A stretch of 64,000 bases of DNA from Atrina japonica. Taxonomy: Eukaryota > Mollusca > Bivalvia > Pterioida > Pinnidae. Numbering within the stretch: position 1 is the stretch's first letter; every line of letters starts with the position of its first letter. The notes under the pieces are model-generated. The model was not told the origin of the DNA and made no database searches. It was given only the letters and a program-made list of their open reading frames with translations. This document shows positions 3,081 through 64,000 of this stretch, in pieces. The stretch covers positions 1 to 64,000 of the forward strand of contig BROG01000464.1 in the NCBI GenBank assembly GCA_030159075.1. Direction: 5' to 3'. Made by a program: the position numbers and the translations under genes.

Positions 3081-3200
3081 TGTAACAGTCATGGATATAG
3101 TCCAAAAGCTAGGTTTTGTGGCTGGATGTTAGCGTTTATTTCATGTACTGAAGTGATGCAACGTCAGCATCTGGATGGGTGACAATCTGATGTCTGAAAT
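3081..3200 (+). mobile_element. Degenerate solo copy of the 5S-like LTR element
   Basis: Starts with the same 20 bases TGTAACAGTCATGGATATAG as the element at 44390, shares tttgtggctgga and catgtactgaag, and keeps cagcatctggatgggtgaca, which resembles box C of the 5S rRNA internal promoter. The right end is lost after tctgatgt. Confidence 0.65.
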
Positions 3201-4861: not shown

Positions 4862-6795
4862 CGGTGTAATGTAGAAAAGCGACCAGCATAGAAAAACTAC
4901 CGGGGGTCAATATTCTACGTAGAAATCATACCGGGCTCTTGTAGAAAATTGACCCATACCTGTAGAAAAATGACCCGCGTTCCTACGAATTTAGAGACGC
5001 GCACAATGAGGGAAATATGAATAATGAGAGTTTCTAACATATAAATATCACGTTAAATTTCAGGGAGTCACGTGATGGCTGATCAGTGATTGATGTCTTC
5101 GATTGATGGTTGCAACATCTCGTATCCAAGATGTGGACTCGAATCTCGCTCGGGGCAATTAAAACTGTCATAAGATTTTTCTCCGTCTGATGTGAGAATG
5201 TTGCCAAAAATAGCCCATTCTATTTTTTATGTTTAGCGTCCAACAAAAACTTATCTTCCTATATAATGAAAAAAAAACCCAAAACGACAGAAAAGACACA
5301 ACATTTAAGGAGAACAAATACAAGTTAATGCACATTTATAAATTTTACTGATGCGTTAACAAAAGAAAAACAGATCGAATTAAACTTATAAAAACCATAT
5401 CTTTGGAACAAACTTACAAATAACTTATGAAATAGTAGTTTTCTCTTTGATGAAAATAGATGTTCATGTCTAACTCATTATTTGAGAGCTATGTTCTATA
5501 TGTTTTCCTAGATTCTCGTGATTCTTCTGTTTTACCGGATATCAAAACCAATCCGCCTGCAGACACTGGTCAAAGAAAAAACTTAGGTCTATTTTGTTTT
5601 ATTTGCAAGTTTTTAGATCTTAACAATAATGCATACAAATGACATCTGGTCGCTTTTTCATGAGAAATATAAAAAGTCTCAGATACCAAGGTATATATCA
5701 ATAGGATGTCCAGGATATAGGTACAAATCTTGTAAAAATGGACAAACACAGACCTCTTGAAATCAAGAGATGGGATCAGGTGCCATGGAGGAGTAAACAC
5801 CCCCTGTTGACAGGTCACACCCGCCGTGGGTCCACAGTCAAATTAAAATGAAATATGTCAGAAACGAATCCTCGTCATAATTGGTACAGACGTCTCAACC
5901 GCCGCCATCGAACAGGTAACTCAACATTTCACTTAGTGAAACAGAGTAGTCGCAAACAAGACTATTATATCGACCGTAAAATTTGCGGAACGTTGACATC
6001 AAACGCGGTTTTCGATATCCCTGTGTCAATAATTTGTCAGTGAGTAGTTTACCTCTGCATATGAAATGTTCATATGTTGAACACGCCCTGGCATATCTGA
6101 TCATTTGTGAAATATAAACTCCATGTGCGTCTGATTGTGACATATTACAACTTAAATGTGGAAAAGTAATGATGGGAAAGCCGTAATCGTCGCGTTTGTC
6201 ATATAGCTTAGTTGTTAATTTCCCGTCTGTGTCTATAATTAGTAAAATGTCCAATACGAAGTGTGTGTGCTTGATTCTGTTGTGTCTTTAATTTCTAGTT
6301 CGCTGGGGTATATCGCATTGACATATGTATGTAAATTGTCATTATTAATAGACAAAACTTCGTCGATGTAACTTTTTTTTTCTTTTGATACAGCAGTTTC
6401 TGGATGAAGTCGATTCATATGAATAAAGGAACAGGTCAGCCAATAAAGGAGCACAATTGATTCCCATACCAATGCCGACAGTTTGTTGAAAGACCACGTC
6501 TCCGAACATTATAAATATATTTTCTTCAAGAAATAACGCATTTAGATGTGTTCAAGTTTTAGTCATATTTGGCCTTTGGGGTCCAACGCTGTCCAGATAA
6601 TAATCAGGCCTAATACATTTATATGCATGATATCCGTGTTCCTTTTTCCTTAAAATATAGGGTAATTTTTATTTGGGGGTCAATTTTTCACGGAACGACT
6701 AGATCCAACAGAAATATTGAAGCGGGTCATTTTTCTACGGCTACCTCGGTAAGATTTCTACGGCGAGAAAATTTTTCACGTTACATCGGCACTGT
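4862..6795. mobile_element. Decayed inverted-repeat DNA element containing a nested Penelope-like copy
   Basis: Left arm 4862-4985 (cggtgtaatgtagaaaagcg ... gtagaaaaatgacccgcg) and right arm 6715-6795 (agcgggtcatttttctacgg ... ttcacgttacatcgg) are inverted relatives. Penelope copy B lies between them. Confidence 0.5.
5690..6545 (-). mobile_element. Penelope-like retroelement fragment, 5'-truncated
   Basis: On the minus strand: VFQQTVGIGMG-like start near 6490, YIDEVLSINNDNLHTYVNAI (the second Asp of YIDD reads Glu), IDTDGKLTTKLYDKRDDYGF, FKYGVYISQ-equivalent GVYISQMIRYARACSTYEHF and YGRYNSLVCDYSVSLSEML. The shared tail with tttactcctccatggcacct runs to about 5690. Closely related to the 1354 copy; frameshifted and inactive. 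Confidence 0.87.
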
Positions 6796-17077: not shown

Positions 17078-17179
17078 TTACTCTCGGGACTGGTAAAACA
17101 ATATGTATCCTGTTTCTGAGTTCTTCTGTAGATCTGATGGCAGTCCATAAAAATCTTCTATTGTGCTAGAGTCTATTTT
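17078..17179 (-). CDS. USP12/46: USP12/46 exon 9 with stop codon
   Basis: 102 nt coding [20 protein letters not shown], then [13 protein letters not shown] and TAA at 17080-17078. The C-terminal end matches the family exactly in position. No AATAAA on the minus strand was seen in the first kilobase downstream, so the 3' UTR end is not placed. Confidence 0.95.
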
Positions 17180-20100
17180 CTGTAAAATAAAATGTAGACA
17201 TTTGAAATAGACAACAATTGTTGTTTTATTTGTGTTATCAATTATTCTATGCCTTAACACCTTAACAGTTCTTTGCCCTCAGCCAGTTCTTAAAGTCCAA
17301 GTAAACTTTTTCAACCTGCCTTGCTTAACTTCAACCTCTGAAAAATAATGGACTCTTCCTTAAATCAATGACTTAGACCAGTCCAAATGTGTCAATTAGT
17401 TAAGCAATTCATATTTCAGGATTAGCTAAAGTTGAGTTAAAGTTTTAAACTTAAATAATTCGTAAGTTTTATGGTGCCAGGCCCTGCATATTACTGTATG
17501 AGTATTAAAATTAGCGCACTCATATTTTAGTGTTCTGAGGTGGTGTAGAATTATTAGCGCAATCTTGAATTTGCGCAATTACGACAGACCATAATTTTAT
17601 CATAATGGCACACACTGAAGTATGCACATGATGAATATATTTTTTGTGGTCTAAAAACCATCAGTTTCATCATGTATGCAGAGTGACAGGATTGAGAACT
17701 TTTAGTGCTGCATTTGAATAAGTGCAATGACGTGAACGCCAAAGGCGCTAATATCACAATACCGCTAAAATAAGTACACGTACAGTATATGTCTTGAGGA
17801 AAAAAATCAGAAAATATTACTTCATGGTCAGATAAGCTTCAAGCAAGTCTTGAACCACTGCTGACTAGAGATAACAATATGGCCACAGACACCCCCCTGA
17901 TCATGTCTGCTAGATCCTGCAACAGACAGCAAAGCTACAGGTACTTATCACATATGAAAAAGAACGCACAAAATCTGATCAATGGACATGTAGTTTCGGC
18001 TGTTGTTTACTGTTCAAATAATAACTCTTTATATATACATATGTCCGCATTATCTGTTGATGAAATGTCACACATACAGTGTGTCAGAGACATGTGAAAT
18101 GAACTTGCTTGGATGTTCAACTATTTCCTGGATCAACTGTAACACAAGTAGTAGATGTTCTTTTGTTAAACACTTGCATCAGAACTGATACTTGAACACA
18201 AGTGATGTTCCTTTGTCAAACACTTGAGTCAGACCTGTAACACAAGTAGTAGATGTTCCTTTGTCAAACACTTGAGTCAGACCTGATACTTGAACACAAG
18301 TAGTAGATGTTCCTTTGTCAAACACTTGTGTCAGAACTGATACTTGAACACGAGTAGTAGATGTTCCTTTGTCAAACACTTGAGTCAGACCTGATACTTG
18401 AACACGAGTAGTAGTTGTTCCTTTGTCAAACACTTGAGTCAGACCTGATACTTGAACACAAGTAGTAGTTGTTCCTTTGTCAAACTCTTGAGTCAGACCT
18501 GATACTTGAACACAAGTAGTAGATGTTCCTTTGTTAAACACTTGCGTCAGACCTGATACTTGAACACAAGTAGTAGATGTTCCTTTGTCAAACACTTGAG
18601 TCAGACCTGATACTTGAACACAAGTAGTAGTTGTTCCTTTGTCAAACACTTGAGTCAGACCTGATACTTGAACACAAGTAGTAGATGTTCCTTTGTCAAA
18701 CACTTGCGTCAGAACTGATACTTGAACACAAGTAGTAGTTGTTCCTTTGTCAAACGTTTTGCGTCAGACCAGATACTTTAACACAAGTAGTTGATGTTCC
18801 TTTGTTAAACACTTGCGTCAGAACTGATACTGGAACACAAGAAGTAGATGTTCTTTTGTTAAACACTTGAGCGTACAGAACACAAGTGTAGTTGTTCCTT
18901 TGTCAAACACTTGAGTCAGACCTGATACTTTAACACAAGTAGTAGTTGTTCCTTTGTCAAACACTTGAGTCAGACCTGATACTTTAACACAAGTAGTAGT
19001 TGTTCCTTTGTCAAACACTTGAGTCAGACCTGATACTTAAACACAAGTAGTAGTTGTTCCTTTGTCAAACACTTGCGTCAGAACTGATACTTTAAAGTGA
19101 TATGAGCTGCCGTAGGTGAAAAAATTTACATGTCTATTTTATGTAATATTTTATCTCATATATATCCCAAAGAGACCATCTGGTGGTTAGAATAACAAAT
19201 GCATGAGTATATTTGCAACAATCTTGCAAAATGTAACCCGTAATATCAGTTATTGTTTGTCTGCCATTACTTTGAGAACTGCAAATTAACTTTTGGTAAT
19301 TTTTTACGAAGATTACCGAGTGTCTGATAAACATGTGCTATTTGCAGTTAATATACATTCTATTCTTATTACCCTTTGGGTTTATTTTCGTACATCATCA
19401 TTTCATACTTAAACCAGGCAAAGTTGTTCTTTTTCGTTGTTTCAAAACATTTGTTTCTGAAATTGTCCACATGACGGGTATATCGGGTGATCTCGACCCA
19501 TTTTTAACTTGTCCCATCGCATTTTCGGCTTGATCATTCTTGACACATATGATTATGAACTGCCCAACTCCACCAGACATGGCGGCATGATTGTAAAACA
19601 TGAGGTACGCATACTTTTCACAGTTATATTATTTTGATTTTGTCAGTGTCAGCATTCAGGGTAACATTGAAGATCGGGAAAAAATCTCTTAGTGACCTGA
19701 TATATTTATTCATATATTCATCCGATTTTCTTCATGTATTAAAAATAGCATTGAAAAGCATATATTTTACTTAATACATGCACATTCCAATAAAAATCAC
19801 GTCCTGTATGTGTCAGGGGACAAAAATAATCATTCTAACAGCTTATATCGCTTTAACACAAATAGTAGATGTTCCTTTGTCAAACACTTGCATCAGACCT
19901 GAGACTTTAACACAAGTAGTAACTATTCATTTGCCAAACCAGGCATTTGAAGTGAAGTAGGTCTTTCAGACGAGTCTATATCTCAAGTTTTAAAACTGAG
20001 GTCCTGTGTAACAGCAGGAAGAACAGCAAAATAGAGAACAGTATGGAGATAGGACATGTTTACAACTCTATTCTCGACCGGGAGAAAAGTAAATAAGTTC

Positions 20101-23100
20101 CTGTACAATAGTGTATAACAGTACTGTCAGTAGGTGTGGAGCAATCAAAAACTTTATATCTATCTAATTTATACAGATCTTAGGCATGATCTAGTTCAAC
20201 CTTGGTGTTTTGGTGGTTTATCTATGCTATTCAACAGGTAGCCGTTGAATAGATAAATAGATTTTAGGCATATTGAACAATTCGACAGATAGCAGTTGAA
20301 TAGATGAATGGAATTTAGCTATTCAACTGCCCAGCTGTCATATGAACAAAAATAAGGGAACAAAATCATTTCAACCTTCAAACAAGTTAATTTTTTTTGT
20401 TTTGTAGTATTTCGAACAAGAATTATATAATGGAATGTTAGTTCTTAATCCTCTTTCCTGATTTTGATAAATTCATATTGTGACACAGATTCAGATACAG
20501 TGACATCATGTTTTCCTTTAGATCCTTGAGAGCTGAATCACATATTTTCTCTGTTCATTTCATTTTCTTCATATTCAGTACATCATTGATAACAGTACAC
20601 ATGTATATACTGTATACAGGGAAATTTTCGCTCCCGTTTTATTTTTGCCCCTTTCGCCCTCATCGTCAGACGGCGAATTCAAAACTGTGCCAATACAAAA
20701 TGGTAAATTCATCTACTTTTAATAATAAAAGTCAGGGCGAATTTAAAATGGGGAGAAACCATTTGCAAGTGCATAAGGGCGAAATTAACATGGGGAAAAA
20801 ATAACCCTGTATACAGTAAATATATCTAGTCCAGATGAAACATCTTTAATATTACTCCAAGTTATACATAAATTATTGTCTCTGTCAATACAGATACATC
20901 TGATGTGACTCCATTTTGTTTGTACTGTCACATCTCAATGAACATTGCAAGAGCTACCTTCATGCCAGGTAACTTTAAATCATATTAACTATTCAATACT
21001 GTTTAGCCCTTTAGATGAATGTCCTGACCATGCATTGGGGCACAATAAATGGGTAAATTTTTTAAGTTTGATAAATCATGAAATAGTGTTGAATAGTAAA
21101 GAGAACAATACCCCTCTCGGGCTTTTGGCCCTGGAGAGGGTACATGTTCTCTGTACTATTCAACACTACTTCATGATTAATCCATTACGCTGAATGTTCT
21201 TCCTCTTGTGAGAAGCCAATATGAATATTGTGTGGGGATAGGTACTAAAACATGTTCTATTCTGACACAATTTTGTTGCTATAAGAAGTAATCTAAAACA
21301 AGAAAACAGATGGATTGTAATACTTACATCTACAATATCATCATCAAACAGTAACCAAAAACCATCACTTTTCACAATACTTATGTAATGGCCACGATTT
21401 AAGCTACTTCCGATGTGGATCACCACGGCAACTAGATCATACATCCTATCTGGATTACAAGCATCGTCAGACTGAAATTATGTAAAATAAAAAAGTTGTA
21501 ATAATTGTAATATTCCAACAGTACATAATTATAGAATAAGTGATCAAGGATAAATCCTCAGAAATTCAAAATTCAAAATTTTCAGACAATACCTTGTGGT
21601 CTTTAAATAGAGGTTGATTTATACACAAATGGTACTAATGGGGACATCAAAAAACGGTCTTTGTGACCAGGTGGTTTTTATACACAGGTGGTCGCTAAAG
21701 CAGGTCTTACTGTAATGAGCTTAATATAAAGTCCATGTAATGTTTAGAATTAATTTTCAGGAGGGAACTAAATGCATTGAATTTTCTATATCAAATGCAA
21801 CATTTTTAAGTTAACATAGAAATAAATCTTAGATTAAGAATTGTATTAGCTATTACATACAAAACGTTATGTGATTAAAAAAATGGGGAGTTAATCATTA
21901 AGACCATGGTTTATACAGCCGATGAAAAAGATTTTTCAAGCACTTTTCCACGACTTTTCCTACTGTTTTTCAAGCACTTTTCCACGACTTTTCCTACTGT
22001 TTTTCAAGCACTTTTGAAGCATTTCAATGGGTTTGTTCAAGCTATCATGACCTTGCAAGCCAAAACAAAGTGAAAGAAAACTAAAAACACTGACAGCAAA
22101 GTTCTATCACATTTCAATGGCCGTCCTCAAAATACTGCTTAGAGTTTTACTAAATACTAAAGAGATCCATCAGTACAGAATCATGCATCTGTATGATCAT
22201 ACTATTAATTTTTCTTTATTAAAAAGAGTCTTTCATTAGTGACGATAAATATGAAAGAAGAAGAATTCAAGCACTCCGATGAAATAAGTCAAGCATTTTG
22301 CATCAAATTCAAGCACTTTTCAAGGGTATTTTTGTATTCAAGCACTTTTCAAGGTCTGTGCAAACCCTGTAAGACTGTATATGACAATCACTGCCAGACA
22401 GAAATGTAAGAATTGTACTTACCGTATTAAACAACCTAAGTTCTAGTGGAAATACAACACGATATGATAGTTTGGTAAATCGATTCATTTGTTCCATATA
22501 CTTGAACCTCTTCAGGTGTAAAGCTAAAATTTGAGGCAACTTTTTAACCCGCATTCTGAAAAAAAAATGATATCTTAATCAATATTTTTCACACATAGAA
22601 AAAACAGAAATATACATGTAAGGACTAGTTGTATATCATATCGTCTGACTCCTAAGGCAAGTTTTATGTTCCAAGTTAAAAGGCCAGTTATTTAACGAAT
22701 GAACGCTTGTCAAAGAGCATTTAATGTCAAGATAGATGCCGTTTGGGTGAAAAATCAATAGAATGCCGCCCACTAGCGTCCATTTGTTATAATTACATAT
22801 CATAGATTTTAAATTGAAAAACAAAATAATGGAATTGAAAATCCTGCCTTATACATGATCAACCACATTATGATGGAAGAGCTAAGATCAAGGTATAACA
22901 GTAAAGTAAAGTACTGAACGAAATATCTTGGTGTGACGTCATGTTATGAATGAAGGTACATCATTATGTGTCTTCATATGAGGAACTTCATTTATATCAG
23001 ATATGAGCACTGAATCTATGGGAGACTGCTGCGGGAAATGTAAATACAGTAAAACCTGCTTTAGCCACAACCTGTGTGTAAAGACCACCTGGTCACAAAG

Positions 23101-26100
23101 ACCATTTTTTGCTGTCCCCAATAATATAATTTGTGTACAAATCAACCTCTATATAAAGACCACCTCCCTATAAAGAACGATTTTCTTGTGTCCCTAAAGA
23201 GGTTGTTATTTACAAGTTTCGCTGTATATTGAATTAAATAACCTTAATATCAAGTTGTATATGTATGTTTGTTTTATTGGTTGTTTTGTGCCAGACTTAA
23301 CAATTTTTCAGTTATACGGTGGCGACCATGTTTTAATGGTGGAGACAGAACCCAGTTAGAAAGTACCCGGGGAGAGACCAGCAGTCTTCCCCAAGTAAAT
23401 TGGCAAATTTCCTCACAAAATCAGCTAAGGTTTCAGTGGGGCTCGAACCCAGGCTGACCCAACCTGAGAGACTTCATGGTTTAAAGTGTGATGCTCTTAC
23501 CACCTGTCCATGGAAATATTTTATTATATCATATTTCCCATATATTCAATTGTTAGACTTGTTCTGTTTCATACAACTTAGATATCAAATGGTTAGATAT
23601 CAAACGGTTAGATATCAAATTGTTAGATATCAAATTGTTAGATATCAAATTGTTAGATATCAAACGGTTAGATATCAAATTGTTAGATATCAAATTGTTA
23701 GATATCAAATTGTTAAATACCTAATTATTAGATATCAAACGGTCAATTATCAAATTGTTAGATGTCAAATTGTTAGAAATCACTGTCAGATATCAAATTG
23801 TTAGATATCAAATTGTTAAATATCAACCTGTTAGATATTAAACTGTTAGATATCAAATTACATGTATATGATTGATTTCAAGTTACAACACTGTTACTAT
23901 TTATCAAATAACCAATATCCAGGGATCTCCATGGATGAACATATAACGATGGAGCAATCTTCAACTCGATTCGAAAACCCCCCTCAAAAACCACCTGCAC
24001 CCCTGCCGAAAAAATATGAGTCACGACTTTTACGATTGCATTTGAAATTATTTTAAAATTATTTATGATCTAACATCTGTTAAAAAAGTGAATTTTATCT
24101 AATCCTAAAATATTAGTTGATATAATGAATGTATTTTATTGATTATATTTAAAGTATAAAATATTTATGATTTTATTGATAAAATCATTACACTTCAATT
24201 AATCACTATATGATAAATACATGTATGTAGATTAACTGAGGGTAAAAGAGCATTTTTATACTGATGATGACACAGACCTTTACACCATGCACACTGACAT
24301 TAATTTATAAATTTCATGCATATTTATTTTTCGCTGAAATAATTTCAATTTAAAAACTTTTAAATAAATTAAATCAAAGAATTGAAATGCCAGTAAAATT
24401 CATGGACCTGTTTTTTAAAAAATGGATGTACAGATGAATAATTTTAGTAAATCTTTACATCTTTCATCGATCGGGTTTGGTGTTGGTCTGTTCATTTAAC
24501 TTGGCGGAAATGAAATATGGCCAAACGCACATTGCAGTTCGGTTGTGGTCAATCATTTTCAGTGGTAAATTATTGAATATACTGTTAATATTGTTTGCTT
24601 TTCTTATGTCTATTACAGCATTAATACCAAAATTTCATGTTTGGTGATACATTTGCTTATGTTAGACATCGTCGCTGTCTATAGCACTGTATATAAACAT
24701 CAGCATTTTAATGAAAATTGTTGACAGATTTTGTCGGTTGTTGGCTTCTATTGCCAGGACTGTGTTTGTATATCACATGATGTTAATTCATCTGTATATT
24801 ATTTCTCCAAAATTACTGATAAATAAGCTTGTATGAAAGTGAGTAACACCGAAAACGATAACAAATTTGTTTAGGCTACACTACAGTACATTGTATATTA
24901 GGATGGCGATTGTTGATTTAACAATGGCACTTGGAAATTTAATGATGGCGCAGACAATTTAACAATGGCGCAAGAAAATTTAACGACGGTGCAGCGCCAT
25001 CATAAAACAGATCATGGAGATCCCTGAATATCATATGGTATGACTGCCTCTTTGTATAATATAACCTAGATATTAGTTGTAATACTGGTTCCGTATAAAC
25101 AAGATATCAGGGTGTAAGACTGTCTGATGCATCACATAACAAAGATATCAAGTTGTCAGCCAGTCTGATTTATCACATAACATAGATATCAAGTTGTCAG
25201 CCAGTCTGATTTATCACATAACATAGATATCAAGGTGTAAGACAAGAACTGTGTATAACATGACCCTGATATCTAGTTCTACGACAGGTTCCATATATCA
25301 CATATTCAAGATATCATTGTAAGACAGGTTTCGCATATCATATATCTTAGATATCATTGTAAGACAGGTTCTGTGAACCACATCTTAGATATCAAGTTGT
25401 AAGACAGTCTGATGTATCACATAACTTGGATATCATTGTAAAATAGGTTCATGTCTTACATATCTTAGATATCAAATTGTAAGACAAGATCAGTGTAGTT
25501 CCTAGACTAGATATTATAAGACAGGTTTGTGTATCAAATATCTTAGATATCAAGTTGTAAGACAACATATCAAATATCGTAGTTATCATTGTAAGACAGG
25601 TTCCCTGTATCACATCTTAGATATCAAGTTGTAAGACGAGATCAGTGTATTACCTAGCCTAGATATCATTGTAAGACAGGTTCGTGTATCAAATATCTTA
25701 GATATCAAGTTGTAAGACAACATATCACATATCTTAGATATCATTGTAAGACAGGTTCATGTATCAAATATCTTAGATATCATTGTAAAACAGGTTCTGT
25801 GTATCACATAACCTAAATGTTAAGTGTATTACACTAACATCAAGGAAATCAAACTACAAGATCATCTCTCTAGATATTATGAATATCTCAAAACTAAATA
25901 CTATCCAGATATCTGATTGCTATACTGACCTCTTTTGTGCTTCCTGTTTACTACAGCACACTTCACAATAATACTTGTGCTCAGCACATAATGTTTCTGT
26001 GCTACTAAAGCCTCTAAGACAATGTGTGATTGATGTATTTTGTTCCACGTCCACGGACAGATCCAAGAAGTCTTCATCTTTACTGCTGACCTTTAAGAAA

Positions 26101-29100
26101 TAAAATAAACAAATATCATAATTAGAAATGCACACATACTTAACACACAGTTCATGAAAAGTTATTTCAAAGTAGTTTTAAAGTAAATGATTGCTATAAT
26201 TAAACAAGAGTTATCAGAAGACAACAAAGCTTGCTGGAAATGGGTGTAAATTTTCAAAATAGGTACATGTATTTGATCCACAGCTGACAGGTTTTAAGGT
26301 CAAGGTACAGTTAAAATTTTGATTCCATCTGTTAGATTAAAGCTTCTGAAAAGTAGGTCAAAGCCAAAGTTCAAGGTCACAAGGTCAAAAGTCAAGGGAC
26401 CAAATGGAAACTCTGATCATAAGAAATCTACATGTGAAATATCAAAGCCCTATCCCTCGTGGTTTAAAAGATATAGCCAAGGTTAATTTTGAAAAGTAGG
26501 TCAAAGTCCAATGTCACAGTCACTAGGTCAAAAGTCAAGGCACAAAATGAAAGCTCTGGTCACAAGGAATTTATATATGAAAATGAAAGCCCTGTCCCTT
26601 GCGTTTAAAAAGATATAGGCCAGGTTAAAGTTTTGTCTATGGATGCAGACAATAACAATGGCATCGCCGCCAGAGTATGGTATTACTTCTCTGGATTTTG
26701 TTTATTTTTCATCTGTTCTCATAAACATGACACAATTTTCTACATTCAAGTTTTGTTTATTTCTATGTTGTTTTATGCCACACTCAACAATTTTTCAGTT
26801 ACATGGTGATCACCAGATTTTAATGATGGAGGAGAGAAAGGGGTTACACTCTCCACTAGCTCTCTGCAAGCAAACTGGCAAAATTCCTCACGAAGTCAGC
26901 TAAGGTTCCAGCCCGCCTCAAACCTGCCCCGCCTAGAGGTGAGAGACTTCATGGCTTAGAGCATAATGTTCTAACCATTTTAAAAAACATGGAGGGCCCT
27001 CTTTAATTGAGTCTCAATGACAACAAAATACAGAGACTTACTGTTTCACAGTTTAAACATCTTGTCTCATTGGTAAATGTCCCTTGAAATAAGTCCTCCA
27101 CCCAGGTGGGTTCTGGCTTGGACTGTATGTCTGTTGGACCATTCTTGGGTTTGTTACCCTGTTTTTCTGCTATAAATAGAAAATGATAAAAAAGATTTAT
27201 TTACATGAATGACAATGAAATCTACAATAAAAAAAGTCATTATCCATGGAAATACAGTCAAACTTGCTTTAGCGACCACCCGTGTATAAAGACCACCTGG
27301 TCACAAAGACCATTTTCTGCTGTTCCCAATAGTACCAATTGTGTACAAATCAACCTCTATATAAAGATGACCTCCTATAAAGACCGGTTTTCTTGAGTCC
27401 CCAAGGAGGTCGTTATATACAAGTTACACTGTACACATGAAGAACAACCTGCTGACACGACTTACAAATGAACTTTGCCAATACTATTTTTTCATGAATA
27501 AGTATGTGCATGTATTGAAATAATCATAATGTTACGTTAACTTTTCAATGTTTATATGGTATTTTACGGTCCAATTTAGAGCAAATTTATCATGCATATG
27601 TACTGTTATTATCATGTACATGTACCTGCGTCACAAACAGCTCAGGTATATGATTGTTATTATAATCTAATTGTATGTAGATCTGTTATGAAAATTAATA
27701 CACTTTCACTGTTTTCAGTGTTATTTTTTTGACTCAAAGTCCGATTCATTCTCAAAATAATTATCACTCCAATTTTTTTCACTCTGACTTAATCAGACTT
27801 TCATAATTAATAACGACCATGTTTGTTCCCACATAGGATTGACGTTATATCAAATTTGCCACTGTAAAGAAATTAATGTGGTGAGCATTTTATAGTTAGC
27901 TCCCTTGAGTATCATTTACGCATATAATTACATGTAAATAAATAAAACAGAGTCATAACTGTTCTTAGTACAAACTATTTTCACCCTTTTAACTGTCATA
28001 TTTATTCAAGATAATCTTGTAAACATCGATGCACAATTATTTTTTTGGTCGCATATAGTAAATCGGTGATGTCGTAAAATGTATGGATACAAAATGCCTG
28101 AATGTAACTGATTCCGAGTTAGATTCTTTATTGCTTAAATAAAAAGCACAGAGATTGCTGATACAATATAATTAAAAATAACTTTCATAAATAAAATCTT
28201 ACTAAAATGTCTATGGCTATCGCAAAAATTGAAGTAATTTAATGATACGCCATTGTAAACACATCGGCACAGACATGTAGCCTAACGGAACTTGTCAACT
28301 ATGTGTATTTATTTTAATTATCTTTATTTCCATTTGTACACAGCTCGTATTTTAATGTCAGTTCAGTCCTAATGAAACCTGTTTTCTAAACATTAGGCCT
28401 ACTGCAGTAATGGTAAGGCAAATCATTGACGCCTATTGTACCACCTATCAGTGTAGATCAGCGAACAATTGACGGTATAATTGTTTTATTGACACAATTA
28501 TTTTTACCTGTGATATCAACCGTGAAGAAAATCAAGACTGATAACAATAGCCGAATCAGCAGGTGGCTTCTATGTCAGGTTGTTGTAAAGAGTTTACTTA
28601 CACCGAGTTCTGTACATTTGTTCCCGGAATCTAATGTCGGAGTCGGATATTGAATATTCCGTTGTAATGAGTACTTTTTATGTACATGTACATTTGTTAA
28701 CGAGCGATTCTTGTTGGATACAGAATATTCCGTTATAATGAATGTCGTTGTAAAGCGGGTTCACTGTATATAACATCTTTATATATCATTCAATTATTGG
28801 CAGCCAGTGTTCAAAGGGATGAAAACTTTCAGCAGGACTGTCAAAAAACAGTTGGCAGGAGTTCATTAATTTCTGAAAGATAACATCAGGCCACTTACCT
28901 TGTAAAAGTTCTGACACTCGATTCAGTAAATAGTTTAAGAACTCATGAGCATCCTGTTGCATGAAGTTATCAAACAACTCTGTGAAAAAAAAGCAGAAAA
29001 AAAACAATTCAACATACATGAGAATGTAGAATTTTAAATGTCACCAATCTTTTAAATTCACAGAAAAAAAGCCAAATCTTTTCTATGGATGAAAAAGATA

Positions 29101-32100
29101 TATTTCATTGTAATAAATGTTTATAATACACAAACAGGCGTTTATATTTCGGGTAAACTGAGGTACAAATAAAACCGCCAAAACACCCAAATATCATTTG
29201 TGCTGAAACAATACTGTGCCTGAGGTCACATAGTGTGCCTAATCTACAAGTACAATGTCTGCCACTGACAGCTCATATACATGTATATTTCTTTAAATGA
29301 CTGATCTTGAAATTGATTGTTTACTGAACTCTCATGGATAAAATTTTGACAAAATATCCTTAAAACATTTATACCACCACTCTCACAATAATTCCCAAAT
29401 AACTCTTGGACAAATGTCCAGAATTTAGAGAGGGAGCGCTTGTGAATAAACGAAATGCATATGTGTATATACAGGTGACCAGAGATACCTTGAAGTCCAC
29501 GGTACCACCGAAAAACTTCAAGGATTCAAGAGTTCAAGGTTTTGAAAGTTCCAGAAATGGACATTCTGACCGATATAGGTTCTTAATACTACACTAAATA
29601 AGGAATTTTGTTTCCTAATTCGTATGAATTTTGTCATAAACAATCCCCTACCTAATTTTCAAAAATAAAAAATGTGTAAATATGTTATCTTTATCATTAT
29701 GTATCCGATTTGGATAAAAACCGTTGTCGACATAAATGGTATATAATGTTGCAGTAGCATTCACTACTACTTCAGTAATCTACAATACTGCTTGATCTAA
29801 AAATTAAACTACCACTTGACTTGGCTGCGACACTTGTACTCGACATTGTCGTCTACAATGCATCTTTATACAGTTCTTCTGTTTTAATAGCTCTTAATTA
29901 ATTAACAATCCTGTCAATCACTTCTTGATTAGGTCAGGGACTACTTGTCACCCGGTTATCAAAACAACTTTTGTTTAATCTTCCAGGTAAGGATCCCGGT
30001 GTCGTTCTGGCTGGCGGCATTGACTTTTAATGAAATCACCAGTAATTACTTGAACTTTGAGGTTTCAAGAGTGAAATATAAAGGAATATATAAATCGGGA
30101 CTTCGAGGTTTCAAGGACTTCGAGGTTTCAAGAACTTCGAGGTTTCACTGTTCGAGAGATCGAGAGTTAATTTACTTAATTTATAAAGAAAAATAATCAT
30201 GACCTGTACGAAACTTCAAGCTTTCAAGAACTTCTAGGTTTTGATGTTTGAGCCATCGAGAGTCACCTGTATTACATACATGTATATTGTTTTTCTTTTG
30301 GTATTTTTAATTTCTGTTTGGTTTTTATTTTCTACTTTTTACAATTTTTGCTTACAGAGTGGTGACATGTTATTTATATTGTATATTTCTCTTGATCTCC
30401 AATTTAAAGATGGAAAATTTGATGTCATACAATACATAGTGGCATACACATGTGCATATACCCAAGTAAACTTACAGACTAACACTGTTTCATCTTTATT
30501 CATTTCAAATTCTTAAGCTACAAGTATTTCTATAATTTTACAAACCATATTCCTTTCTGAGCCTGGTGATGAATTTCTTTGGTGCAATTGTACCAACTTT
30601 CTTCTTCTGTGTAGCAATATTATAAAATAAATCAGCTAAGCAGGTAAGTAATGTCTCTTTTTTGTTGTTTTTCTGATGCTGTTTGAACTGAAGAATTTTC
30701 TCACGGAAAGGTCGACAGAAATACAACGCTTGTAAAACAGAGTTACTGTAGCAGGTGTTTCCAAACTGTCAAAAAAAAAAAAAGATATTTTAAAACACAT
30801 ACACCGAGACTCTTTTGATATGTGAGCCGGTCTGGCTCAATCGGTAGCGCGCTCGACTCTTGATTGTGAGGTCATGAGTTCGAGTCCAGCCGGCGACGGG
30901 CTGGTTTCCTGTCCTGCGGATGAGACAGTAAAAACCGAGGTCCCGTGTCGCAGTAGGTGTCGGCACGTGAAAGAACCCTCACTGCTCAATGGCCGTAAGT
31001 GCCGAGCATAAGCCAAAATTTGAAGCCCTTCACCAGCATTTGGTGACCTTTCCATATGAGTGAAATATTCTTGAGTGGGATGTTAAACAACAATAAACAA
31101 ACAAACTTTTGATATGTATTGTAAAAGTTTCCTCGGGTGACTTTGATCTTAAACATAGAATAACCGAAGTATACAAACTTAACCTCACACATGGTCAGCT
31201 TATATTACATCCCCCAATTAATTTCATCCAAATTGTAAATTGCAGCACTGAAAAAAGACTACATACATGTATAAGTCCAAAACAGGGTCATTTGAGAAGG
31301 ACTAATCCAGCACCTGATTTACAGCACATGATTTGCATCATAGAATCTTTATGGCATGCAAGTTAACTTACTCATCCCTAAAGACACATTTGGACTGATC
31401 TAAAACATTGATTTACAGAAGAGTTCATTGTTTTTCAGGGGTGTATGAGTTAAGTAGATCATGTATGAACAGTAGAATCAAGACCTCAACCAATTTTCTT
31501 TACTGGATGTTGGATGCCTCTACTTTGTTGAGGTCAGCTTAAAACGTGAGTTGTGATGCTCTTGCAAAGTGAGTCTAGAAATGTTCTTCTTTAAAGGATC
31601 GTTCGACAGATCCAGAGAGATTTTCAGATTTCTGCTTTTCAAGACAAGTTGAAGTAGTCTTTAATGGCATTGGCCTTTAAGAGTGTTACCATTTTCAGCT
31701 TTAACTTGATGCAGCTGTGTTATGGCAAAGGGACCTCAGATGAAAACTATGGTGTTTATATATAATTAAACTAGTCATACTGATCTTTTCAGACATTTTT
31801 TTTTATCAGCCAGCATTAACGAGAAATAAGAATATACACAGGTAACCCCCTCCACACCTTTAAAAAGTTTAAAATACTCTTTGTTTAAAAGATACATGTA
31901 CCTGTACCTGTCTAAACTGAAGAAGCCAATAATGATAGAAAGAGCTGACTTTAAGTTAACAATAAAATATAATTCAAATATACTGTAAAATCATACATTT
32001 TTGTTGAGAATTTTATTTTGTGAAGTTTTGTGGGTAACTAACGAAAAAGAATGAAAATGAATTCATGACATGTTTAACTTAAATGATATAGACAAGAGGA

Positions 32101-35100
32101 TATCTTAAATTCAACAAAAATTAATCATTGTCACTGAATTTGTTTTTTAAGACAAAACCACAAAAACTCACGAAATAAATGATTTTACAGTACCCGGTAT
32201 ATCACTCCTGGCATTGCAGTGCACCTATCAACAACAATTTTGTCTTTTTTCTTGACAACCATCTAAGGAGATGTTTGAATTGTAATGTGGTACATATGTA
32301 CAAACGTACAATACAGTTACATGTATGTACATATCGGTACATCTTAGAAACAGCTAATTTATGGTCAGAAAATGTTAACAAGAAAAATAAATAAAAAAGT
32401 AAGAATTGTTTGCCAAAAATGAAAATTGTTTTGTTTTATGTCAATCTAATTAAAACTGATTCCTTACCACTCCTGTTTTCTGATACGTTGCATATGGGAT
32501 CTAACGCTATTTCACAAGTGGATGACCTCTCATAGGCGAGTAATGTCCGACCAATGAAAATGTAACTTACAAAATTTTGAAAGTTTTTCAAATGGCAAAG
32601 AGATGTAATATATTTTATAAAGAAGAACCCATCAGTCTGCAAATTCCTTTAGAATATCTTGATTGATTCAAACTTACATGTATCCATGGTTATAAAAAGA
32701 ACTCTCTACTTCCAGACTTTGTGTACTCAAGTCACATTTTCATTGGTCAAAAATACATTGTAAAACACATACGAGGTAATCTGCACATGACTCCATAGCA
32801 GATAATGTTAGATCCTACATGCGACATATCCGAAAACGGGAGTAATTACAGATTGGTTTTAAATTAGATTGGCTTTATGTTACCAAACTCAGTAACCATG
32901 GTAACTCACCCATCTTAAAAGCTTAGTAACTCTGATCAATAAATTTGTTTAAGAAGTTTTGCAAACGAAGTATTTTTTTTTTCTTCTGAAAATTCTGGAA
33001 TTTTTTCTAATTTTCATACCAAAATGAAAACAAAATTTGGTCCAATACCTACCAAACAACCTACATGCCATACATCAAACAAATTACGTTTCTTTATTTT
33101 GGATCTGAACACAATCTAAATACAATGTACTTACATTTACTAGCCCAAAGTAGTGTTCATTTGCAGGTAGTTGCTCAGATCCTATTTCCTTTTCTAGCTG
33201 TGATGCATTGTTACCCTGTAACACACAAAGAGCAATATTATCATCATATCTGTAGATATCAATGTTCATGTCAGTTGCATGCACATTTTCAGGGGTTCAA
33301 AATTCTTTTTTTAGATAATCAAGTCCAGGACTTGGAAAGTAAATTTCTGGCAAGTCCAATTGAGAAATTTCAAAGTCTATGCTGAATTTTGTTAATAAGT
33401 AATAGAGTAAAATTAAATGAATGCAGTCCCTTGGACTTTGGGTATTTCTAAATGCCAAGTCCTAACCTGAATTAAGCAAGTCCCGGACTTCGAATATGGG
33501 GAATTTTGAATCCCTGCATTTTGTAGGTTCTAAGATTTAATATCTGCATTGATTCAAAATGCCATTAATTGTGTATTACACAACCAAAACAAGTTAATTT
33601 TTTTCTACATTTTGTATGTACATGTATCACTATCAGTATGCCCTACATGTATTCCTACATGCATACTATATTCAAAGAGTTCACTTAGTTTCTAAGTTAG
33701 AGGTAAATCTGTAAAGAAAATGGAATTGTATACTGCCAATACTAATAGGCAGTCTTGAAACATCGTTAATTTTTCTAACTTGCCCATGGACTAGCCGTCC
33801 ATATTTTTCAACTTGCTCCAGGTGTCGGGCAAGTGGATTTGTCCTGCCATGAGATGTGTTTCTAGCCAAAAAAGAGTTAAATAGGCACTGCGGCATTAGC
33901 TGTGTTTACCAAAACAAATTATTTCAATTTTTTCTACTTTTCCTACTTGTACCTGATGTACAATTAATAACAAATAAGACCTACACACAAACATAAAAAA
34001 TCGGATTGTGAAAATAAGGCCAGGACCAGTATGGTATTCAATATTCATATATAAATAGTAAGATTGAGTTAATCAATTGCAAGTGAATAATTACCAAACT
34101 GGGTTTCTCAATCAATTTTCACAAAATATATAGGGATTTAAGAATTTTCTATGTCAATAATTCAAAAGCGATAATTTTGTGTCTGTTTTTTTATATAGTG
34201 ATGAACAGGTGATAATGATTTGTGCCGCCTACATGGAATGGTCAGGGCTGAGCCCGCTCTACATGAAGGATTTTTTTCACTTGTCTAATCCGACTAATCA
34301 GACAAGTAATGTCAAAAAGTATCTTGTCCGGATCACAAATCCACTTGTCCGTAATTTACAAAGAAAAAATTCATAGGATTACAAAAAAAAAAATAATCTA
34401 AAAGTTAAAAAATAATCATAAAAAAAAAACATATGGTAAGAGAAATTCATAATACAATAAAAAATAAAAGCAACAACAACGATAGGGATGTTACCAAAGA
34501 AAACAAAACAATATCTGTACTCACACACTACAACAATGTCTATTATTTGCCACTTTTCAAATTAGATCTAAACTGTTAATGTTATAATAAACAAACCTTT
34601 ATCGTTGAAAGCGTGATCTTGGGTGATTGATTGATTGCAGAATGTTTTTAAACTGCTCTCAATTTCAACTTGTCTTTCTTTATTTCTTTGCAATGCAGTT
34701 TTCTGTATTATTTTGTTTATAATTTGTTTTCATTAGTCATAAACCAATAAGTTGTCAAACCCATGTTTATGGTATCAGGTAATATCTGTAATCAATTCAG
34801 GGTCACTGCAGTCTCAAAAGCTATTAATTTCTCATAGGTGACAAAGGTTTAAGTGATTATTTTTCGGAAGACCACATGACTCTACATTCGCACCTACTTT
34901 ATTATGATTATTTTGATTGAAATCAATGTCTATCTATGTTTATGCATAGGAAGATAAAACTACTACAATATTTATGTGAGTAATTCAAGCTTAAATGGAT
35001 ACACAACAATTTAGTTGAGGTCAGAAATAACAAATTATAAATATTGCTTGTTATTTTAACTTGTCCACTCGGACAAATGCTTAGGAAGATTTACTTGTCT

Positions 35101-44217: not shown

Positions 44218-45224
44218 ATTATTTAGGCCGAACTTTCTGCCCCAATTTTAAGCAATTTTGTTGTTGTAAAATCAGGGGCAGAAGTCCTCCCATATACTTT
44301 CTTCGTAGCAAGATGCTGTGACATTTTCACAGTAGTTTAGCAATTGTTTTAACAATCTATTTCTCATCGCTGACATTTGATATTTGTTGTGTAACAGTCA
44401 TGGATATAGGCAGATTAGCTGTCTAGTCCATCAGCTAGCTTTTGTGGCTGGACGGTTAGCATTTATATCCATGTACTGAAGTTAAGCAATGGCGAGCGTG
44501 GTCAGCATCTGGATGGGTGACAATCCGATGTGTTGCGCTCGGCACGTTACATTTGGTGGCAGCGAGAAAGCCTGTAATCCAGGAGATACAGCTGAAGGGC
44601 ATAGTGTAAGCTGTGGATTTCAGGTTGAACCCATGAAGCTTCGGGACGAATCTTGTCAGCGGAGAGGGTAGTGTAACAGTCATGGATGCTTACTTGATCT
44701 TTAAAATTTATAAATCCATCATCACTAAGTTATGACATGACATAATGCCATATCTATGAGATATTTATTCTAGCTACCTATCGTTTTTTGTATTCAAGTC
44801 ATCTGTCTCCATTATGAACATGAGAAAATCTAAGACGTTCGCTGATTGGTTAACTTTAAGATAACAATGAATATGCATTTATGATCAACCAATCAGCGGA
44901 CGTCTTAGTTATTCTTATGTTCAAAATGGAAAACGAGATGACATGTAAATAGAAATGATGGGTAGCTTGAATTCATGTCTTATATGAATGGAATTATGTC
45001 ATGTCATGACTTAGTGATGATGGTTTTATAAATTTAAAAGATCAGGTAAGCGTATCAACAAATATCAGACGTTGGCGATAAGAAATAGATGGTTAAAATG
45101 ATTGATAAACTGCTGTGAAAATGTCACAGCATCTTGCTACGAAGAGGACTTCTGCCCCTGATTTTACTAAAATAAAATTGCTTAAAATCATATCAGAAAG
45201 TTCGGCCGAATAATTGTTCTGCCT
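44218..45224. mobile_element. 1-kb palindromic (foldback) element
   Basis: Left arm aattatttaggccgaacttt ... agcaagatgctgtgacattt ... gatatttgttg, right arm the inverse (caacaaatatc ... aaatgtcacagcatcttgct ... aaagttcggccgaataatt). The inner arms pair too (44690-44850 with 44870-45053), meeting at 'cgctgattggtt/aaccaatcagcg' around 44861. About 365 bp per arm once the TRIM insert is removed. Confidence 0.88.
44390..44687 (+). mobile_element. TRIM-like LTR element with a 5S-rRNA-like LTR, inserted in the palindrome's left arm
   Basis: Candidate LTR 44390-44551 begins TGTAAC and ends GTTACA (perfect 6-bp inverted ends). Two bases later, TGGTGGCAGCG (44554) matches the 3' end of tRNA-Leu as a primer binding site. 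About 100 bp of internal DNA has no ORF; purine-rich gcggagagggtag precedes a second TGTAACAGTCATGGAT (44672-44687), taken as a truncated 3' LTR. Inside the LTR, gaagttaagcaa and ggtcagcatctggatgggtg (44478-44520) match the A and C boxes of the 5S rRNA internal promoter. The opposite arm of the palindrome lacks the insert. Confidence 0.72.

Positions 45225-46224: not shown

Positions 46225-64000
<17,776 letters not shown>

Follow-up and report, generated by a model that had tools for sequence, protein, structure and literature searches.

Genomic setting of the element

The window, the whole 64,000-nucleotide stretch of Atrina japonica contig BROG01000464.1 analyzed here, contains two divergent host genes, one for a USP46/USP12-type deubiquitinase (positions 17081-33239, minus strand) and one for ABCE1 (46280-63482, plus strand). 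Among the best 120 of 1524 hits, the window USP46 was most similar to that of Mytilus galloprovincialis (95% identity), followed by Solemya (91%), Mactra (89%), Octopus and Crassostrea virginica (87% each) and the nemertean Tubulanus (86%). This ranking makes the host a bivalve, probably close to Mytilus, and led to the rejection of a nemertean host, which would have identified the retroelement described below as Ajax. Between the two genes, about 1.6 kb upstream of the first recognized ABCE1 exon, lies a small LTR retroelement of the TRIM type with a 5S rRNA-like segment in its LTR, hereafter the 5S-TRIM.

Other repeats were also present. A 65-bp tandem array (57627-59417) starts within an ABCE1 exon match (57556-57654), and the exon's end (MVCIQRADM) recurs in a later stretch, at 58214-58240. 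Two open frames at 1318-2610 (LDILLNINTDGTL...) and 5570-6508 (KLYDKRDDFGFPIVNFPHL...) are related to each other, lie on opposite strands and resemble mobile-element sequence by eye; the two pieces tested had no Pfam match at E 0.01.

The 5S-TRIM is inserted in a palindromic (foldback) repeat at 44223-45210. The foldback is of the long-TIR type, measures about 690 bp without the insert and has arm pairs that are 85-89% complementary. Its left arm holds the 5S-TRIM and its right arm serves as a proxy for the empty site: the right arm reads TTTGTTG-ATAC-GCTTAC, and the left arm TTTGTTG-[element]-GCTTAC.

Structure of the window copy

Direct reading of the window showed that the 298-nt insert at 44390-44687 (plus strand) is a copy truncated at its 3' end. 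It begins with a 162-bp 5' LTR (44390-44551) that has TGTAAC and GTTACA at its ends; a 120-bp interior (44552-44671) comes next. The interior opens with a TT spacer and an 11-nt primer-binding site, TGGTGGCAGCG (44554-44564), and closes with a polypurine tract, CGGAGAGGGTAG (44660-44671). The LTR then restarts, and only its first 16 nt are present (44672-44687), the remainder of the 3' LTR being missing. The reading of this DNA from its letters alone (the sequence-only reading) had described the terminal repeat, the primer site two nucleotides beyond it, the purine tract and the restart of the repeat, and each of these was borne out, the restart extending for 16 nt and then stopping. It had also described about 100 nt without an open reading frame. 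The interior is longer than that, at 120 nt, and a 77-aa stop-to-stop frame, the sole frame of at least 70 aa, runs across the copy on the minus strand; the absence of a frame of that length thus holds for the sense strand only.

The antisense frame gave one database match, P0121, without a Pfam domain. This predicted protein of 67 aa comes from a 533-base ENA contig; it can be aligned to the element in two frames, the box C stretch included, and a copy is therefore present in another sequence record. Exact-pattern scans gave no match in a viral contig collection and 11 contigs, bacterial or archaeal, in a collection containing prokaryotic contigs.

Viewed by itself, the window copy has a direct repeat of 16-20 nt at its flanks that resembles a long target duplication. 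Comparison with the empty site in the right foldback arm identifies the 16-nt repeat as the start of the lost 3' LTR instead. The copy would thus have inserted into one arm of the foldback and lost most of its 3' LTR afterwards. A decayed second copy, a partial LTR with internal deletions that starts with TGTAACAGTCATGGATA as in the window copy, lies at 3081-3193 on the plus strand.

Copies in the A. japonica genome

The genome (832 Mb in 2347 contigs) was searched with the element, which gave 837 first-look candidates of which 40 were scored, and with the interior only, which gave 259 candidates of which 40 were scored; these candidates are not copy counts. Seventy-two loci were fetched, 39 from the first search, 20 from a search with the second copy as query and 13 through the interior search. 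The two-LTR analysis took in 47 of them (the 39 and the eight of the 20 that had two near-complete LTRs), and 37 passed.

A full copy measures 444 bp and consists of two 162-bp LTRs around a 120-bp interior. An exact 4-bp target duplication flanked 22 of the 37 two-LTR copies, against about 0.15 of 37 expected by chance at equal base frequencies and somewhat more in AT-rich flanks. The 5-bp duplications that the sequence-only reading had anticipated occurred in none of the 37. Three of four intact solo LTRs also had a 4-bp duplication (L079, L083 and L088, but not L087). No target duplication was flagged in the 13 interior-selected copies, most of which are truncated; one of them, L119, has AGTA/agta flanks when its end is placed by eye.

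The family has been active both recently and long ago, as judged from LTR-LTR divergences (K2P) that range from 0.006 to 0.175 and from the identity of one LTR each of L022, L024 and L029. Seven copies (L021, L022, L024 and L071-L074) have LTR pairs identical at 161 of 162 positions, which indicates recent movement. A variant of about 490 bp with part of the interior duplicated was found at L072-L074, L078 and L086, and tandem arrays at L024, L027, L034 and L071.

The element is accordingly classed as a TRIM: it has two terminal direct repeats, a primer-binding site and a polypurine tract within less than 1 kb, encodes no protein for its own mobilization and makes a short target duplication of fixed length. 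The view that the locus holds a small LTR retroelement was supported by these copies, the full two-LTR copies by which it was to be checked having been found in the same genome.

A 5S rRNA-derived segment in the LTR

The LTR carries a 44-nt segment derived from 5S rRNA. LTR nt 89-132 (44478-44521, plus strand) align without gaps to nt 48-91 of the host 5S rRNA with 37 of 44 positions identical, and similarity falls away on either side (13/47 in the upstream flank and 5/28 in the downstream flank). The score against the host 5S was 54; none of 20,000 dinucleotide shuffles attained it, and the shuffle maximum was 29. The 5S-TRIM also had the top 5S score among 3192 window tiles. The host 5S genes were found in a search that gave 13 matches, 11 on contig C87, one on C1939 and a weak one on C58, with 47 of 18,071 candidates scored. 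Ungapped identity to human 5S, in the sequence that we take to be correct, was 33/44.

In the host 5S alignment, and with box positions that we assume for 5S rRNA, the segment holds the equivalents of box A (5S nt 50-64; 44480-44494), the internal element (5S nt 67-72; 44497-44502) and box C (5S nt 80-97; 44510-44527), all on the plus strand. Box A is nearly intact and the internal element is preserved in part. Box C is represented up to GGATGGGTGAC, that is, by its first two thirds; similarity stops at 44521 and the 3' third is not 5S-like. Agreement at about four of five positions had been claimed across boxes A and C. Box A is indeed covered, but of box C only the first two thirds are. Taken together, the full copies and the host 5S match bear out the description: a mollusc genome holds a small LTR retroelement that includes 5S-like sequence.

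An Rfam RF00001 scan of the LTR, which had been suggested as a check, produced no match that reached the threshold: the model stayed below threshold in the window and was absent among matches at E<=10 on 44300-44800, since only 44 nt of a structured model of 120 nt are present. Taken alone, the decayed copy at 3081-3193 was not significantly 5S-like, as 102 of 5000 shuffles attained its score.

Primer-binding site and candidate helper elements

In 22 of 40 interiors, the TGGTGGCAGCG core of the primer-binding site falls in the initial 20 nt, and the full 18-nt site, TGGTGGCAGCGGTGGGAT, was found in four of the 40 (L022, L023, L029 and L045). L021 and L024, which are among the youngest copies, are outside these four. 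The primer is putatively tRNA-Leu, on the basis of what we presume to be the 3' end of tRNA-Leu(AAG). The commonest interior start, in 13 of 40 copies, agrees with this presumed tRNA over 11 nt only.

Elements that might mobilize the 5S-TRIM were sought in the genome with the pattern TTACA-N-TT-GGTGGCAGCGGTGGGA (as TTACANTTGGTGGCAGCGGTGGGA), which had 17 matches; the reversed control had none. Eleven matches were copies of the TRIM family, five belonged to one Gypsy family (L131, L134, L136, L137 and L138) and one to another LTR element (L123). The Gypsy family has LTRs of 809-969 bp that start with TGTAAC and end with GTTACA (GTTTACA in L136), followed by TT and the 18-nt primer-binding site of the 5S-TRIM. 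The interior of L131 encodes a gag with a Pfam SCAN domain (E 3.2e-13). The pattern prescribed TTACA, TT and the primer site to GGGA, so that only the TGTAAC start (5/5), the G before TTACA (4/5) and the last base of the primer site agree independently. Because part of the agreement was thus prescribed, the SCAN-gag Gypsy is a candidate and not a proven helper; judged from these shared sequences, it is the best candidate mobilizer of the 5S-TRIM.

The distinct element at L123 has a Retrotrans_gag match at E 4.9e-4, below Pfam's cut-off. At L123:1501-1560, sequence complementary to a tRNA-Leu-like molecule continues beyond the primer site; judged by eye, it spans about 33 nt in total and reaches through the T arm, as though copying of the tRNA primer had gone on past its usual stop.

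Contig C34 (L091:41-900 and L126:1292-1360) contains a TRIM copy with pieces of an unrelated Gypsy on both sides. On the right, the TRIM continues through its 3' LTR, breaks off 15 nt into a primer site and is joined directly to the 3' region of the Gypsy, in which an integrase-like C-terminal frame is seen by eye and Pfam gave no retroelement match. On the left, 51 nt from the start of the Gypsy LTR, in inverted orientation, together with 2 nt of the Gypsy purine tract, lie 1 nt from the 5' LTR of the TRIM. This chimera looks like the product of cDNA recombination in one particle. The C34 Gypsy was considered as a helper, since it makes 4-bp duplications (ATCA at L104, TACA at L107) and touches the TRIM on both sides; it was lowered as a candidate, its own primer-binding site (TGGTGGCCAGTGTGGGG) being different and the chimera having no target duplication at its flanks.

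Proposed transcription and mobilization

We propose, with a probability of roughly three in four, that the 5S-TRIM is a recently active element that is transcribed by Pol III from its 5S boxes, primed by tRNA-Leu and mobilized in trans by a Gypsy element. Transcription factors of the 5S type would bind the boxes in the LTR. Pol III would then start near LTR nt 42 (44431, plus strand), which corresponds to 5S +1 when the host 5S register (5S nt 48 = LTR nt 89) is applied, and would copy the element into the 3' LTR. A tRNA-Leu would prime minus-strand synthesis, and reverse transcriptase and integrase would be supplied by a Gypsy, for which the SCAN-gag family is the best candidate. Transcription by Pol III, the property that defines Pol III-promoter TRIMs (TRIMp3), is predicted here from the promoter sequence.

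Alternatively, the 5S-TRIM may be transcribed by Pol II, the 5S segment being a passenger without a promoter role that came from a SINE3 or 5S fragment inserted in the ancestral LTR; we consider this somewhat unlikely. Extra conservation of the 5S boxes was sought across 65 LTRs and was not found, as a passenger would predict. The mean majority fraction at non-CpG positions was 0.927 in the 5S segment, 0.956 in nt 1-88 and 0.971 in nt 133-162, and with CpG positions included it was 0.91 for box A, 0.88 for the internal element and 0.92 for box C. The missing end of box C and the run of four T just past the predicted start also speak for a passenger. Against it, the retained piece corresponds to the internal promoter core, a feature also described for Ajax (PMC10886601). 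The boxes are also kept more often in younger copies: box A is intact in the 5' LTR of 15 of 18 younger and 11 of 19 older copies, and box C keeps its GGATGGGTGAC core in 12 of 18 and 5 of 19, respectively, although decay alone would give a similar trend.

Returning to transcription by Pol III, the run of T could bear on where the transcript ends. The window copy has a single TTTT, at LTR nt 51-54 (44440-44443, plus strand), whose counterpart in the 3' LTR is a candidate Pol III terminator. Of 65 LTRs, 51 have TTTT at these positions and nowhere else, and the interior lacks such a run in 35 of 40 cases; termination at the second run would then give any transcript that passed the first one a terminal repeat of 13 nt. 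A single run confined to the 20 nt past the predicted start arose in 2.8% of 5000 shuffles, which makes the arrangement suggestive only, and the terminator is for this reason hypothetical. Lying 9-12 nt past the predicted start, the first run could also halt Pol III early.

A more elaborate version holds that the 5S promoter was captured for a third independent time, that the SCAN-gag Gypsy mobilizes the element through its termini and primer site only, and that the Pol III transcript sets the R region. Pol III would start at LTR nt 42, ignore the TTTT at nt 51-54 on first passage and stop at that of the 3' LTR. The 13-nt terminal repeat would then serve strand transfer, the arrangement being equivalent, for Pol III, to the poly(A) signal that retroviruses have in R. 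We regard this version as doubtful.

Relationship to Ajax and other TRIMs

To the TRIMs with Pol III-type promoters known from plant Cassandra, Ajax and Helenus were added in 2024 (PMC10886601). Ajax is a TRIM of the nemerteans Notospermus geniculatus and Lineus longissimus (Kojima, 2024; PMC10886601), whose LTR contains 5S rRNA sequence limited to the promoter (box A, internal element and box C). It measures 421 or 434 bp, has a tRNA-Leu primer and makes 5-bp duplications (PMC10886601). The occurrence of Ajax in two nemerteans makes the statement that no animal case was known outdated (PMC10886601). In the titles and abstract openings of the open-access literature searched, no mollusc 5S-TRIM was encountered; a Repbase listing is possible.

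The bivalve element was compared with Ajax by the description of the latter. Both have a 5S promoter fragment in the LTR and a similar length (421/434 vs. 444 bp); the tRNA-Leu primer-binding site of Ajax has a putative equivalent in the bivalve element. These properties would fit the view that the bivalve TRIM is Ajax itself, a single lineage of nemerteans and molluscs maintained by descent or horizontal transfer. We consider that view decidedly unlikely, as the duplications are 5 bp in Ajax but 4 bp in the bivalve TRIM (22/37, with none of 5 bp) and the host is a nemertean in one case and a mollusc in the other. Because of the 4-bp duplications and the different phylum, the bivalve TRIM is filed as a third lineage of 5S-promoter TRIM, set apart from Ajax on the basis of Ajax's description.

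Identification as a 5S-derived SINE (SINE3) is highly improbable: the 5S-like promoter and the 16-20-nt flanking repeat of the window copy would suit such an element, but the repeat is the start of the LTR, and intact copies have two LTRs, TG...CA ends, a primer-binding site, a polypurine tract and 4-bp duplications where SINE3 elements have no LTRs, a LINE-type 3' tail and variable target duplications.

The 444-bp bivalve element is thus a recently active TRIM of the same design as Ajax and Cassandra, in which the 5S segment probably acts as the promoter. A recently active bivalve 5S-TRIM with 4-bp duplications argues for at least three acquisitions of 5S promoters by LTR elements, with different integrase partners. 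Its genome also holds a candidate helper, a Gypsy with the LTR termini, spacer and 18-nt primer site of the TRIM.

Cassandra uses another primer tRNA than the bivalve TRIM and makes 5-bp duplications. Cassandra is an element of plants that measures 565-860 bp, with no helper indicated (PMC10886601), and forms tandem arrays (PMC7215508); it is also treated in PMC10853983. The two elements are alike in being TRIMs with 5S-derived LTR sequence and tandem arrays and differ in length (565-860 vs. 444 bp) and in host (green plants vs. a bivalve). The designation "Cassandra-like TRIM in a mollusc" was therefore apt for the design, with 5S sequence in the LTR, but not as membership of Cassandra, given the length and the bivalve host.

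Helenus, as outlined in PMC10886601, is a TRIM with a tRNA promoter and 4-bp duplications that occurs in animals, including pteriomorph bivalves. On that outline, it has in common with the bivalve 5S-TRIM an animal host, a promoter of the Pol III type, duplications of 4 bp and a Gypsy-like primer-binding site, and differs in that its promoter is derived from tRNA and not from 5S rRNA. The primers named in the outline for bivalve Helenus are Lys, His, Ile, Pro, Glu and Ser, and Leu is not among them (PMC10886601). ARAGORN detected no tRNA gene in the window, although the program could overlook a tRNA that is strongly decayed.

Another bivalve element, biv-TRIM, has a TDR of 202-218 bp, an interior of 77-80 bp, the polypurine tract GGGGAGA and the core TGATCCCAAAGGAC (Satovic et al., 2019; PMC6934838). 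The 5S-TRIM has an LTR of 162 bp and an interior of 120 bp instead, and neither GGGGAGA nor TGATCCCAAAGGAC occurs in the interior of the window copy. Judged by that description, the two are alike as bivalve TRIMs that form tandem arrays. Satellite-like arrays made of pieces of the 5S-TRIM LTR were also observed, with a 53-bp period at L075:640-1500 and a 79-bp period at L081:1-519.
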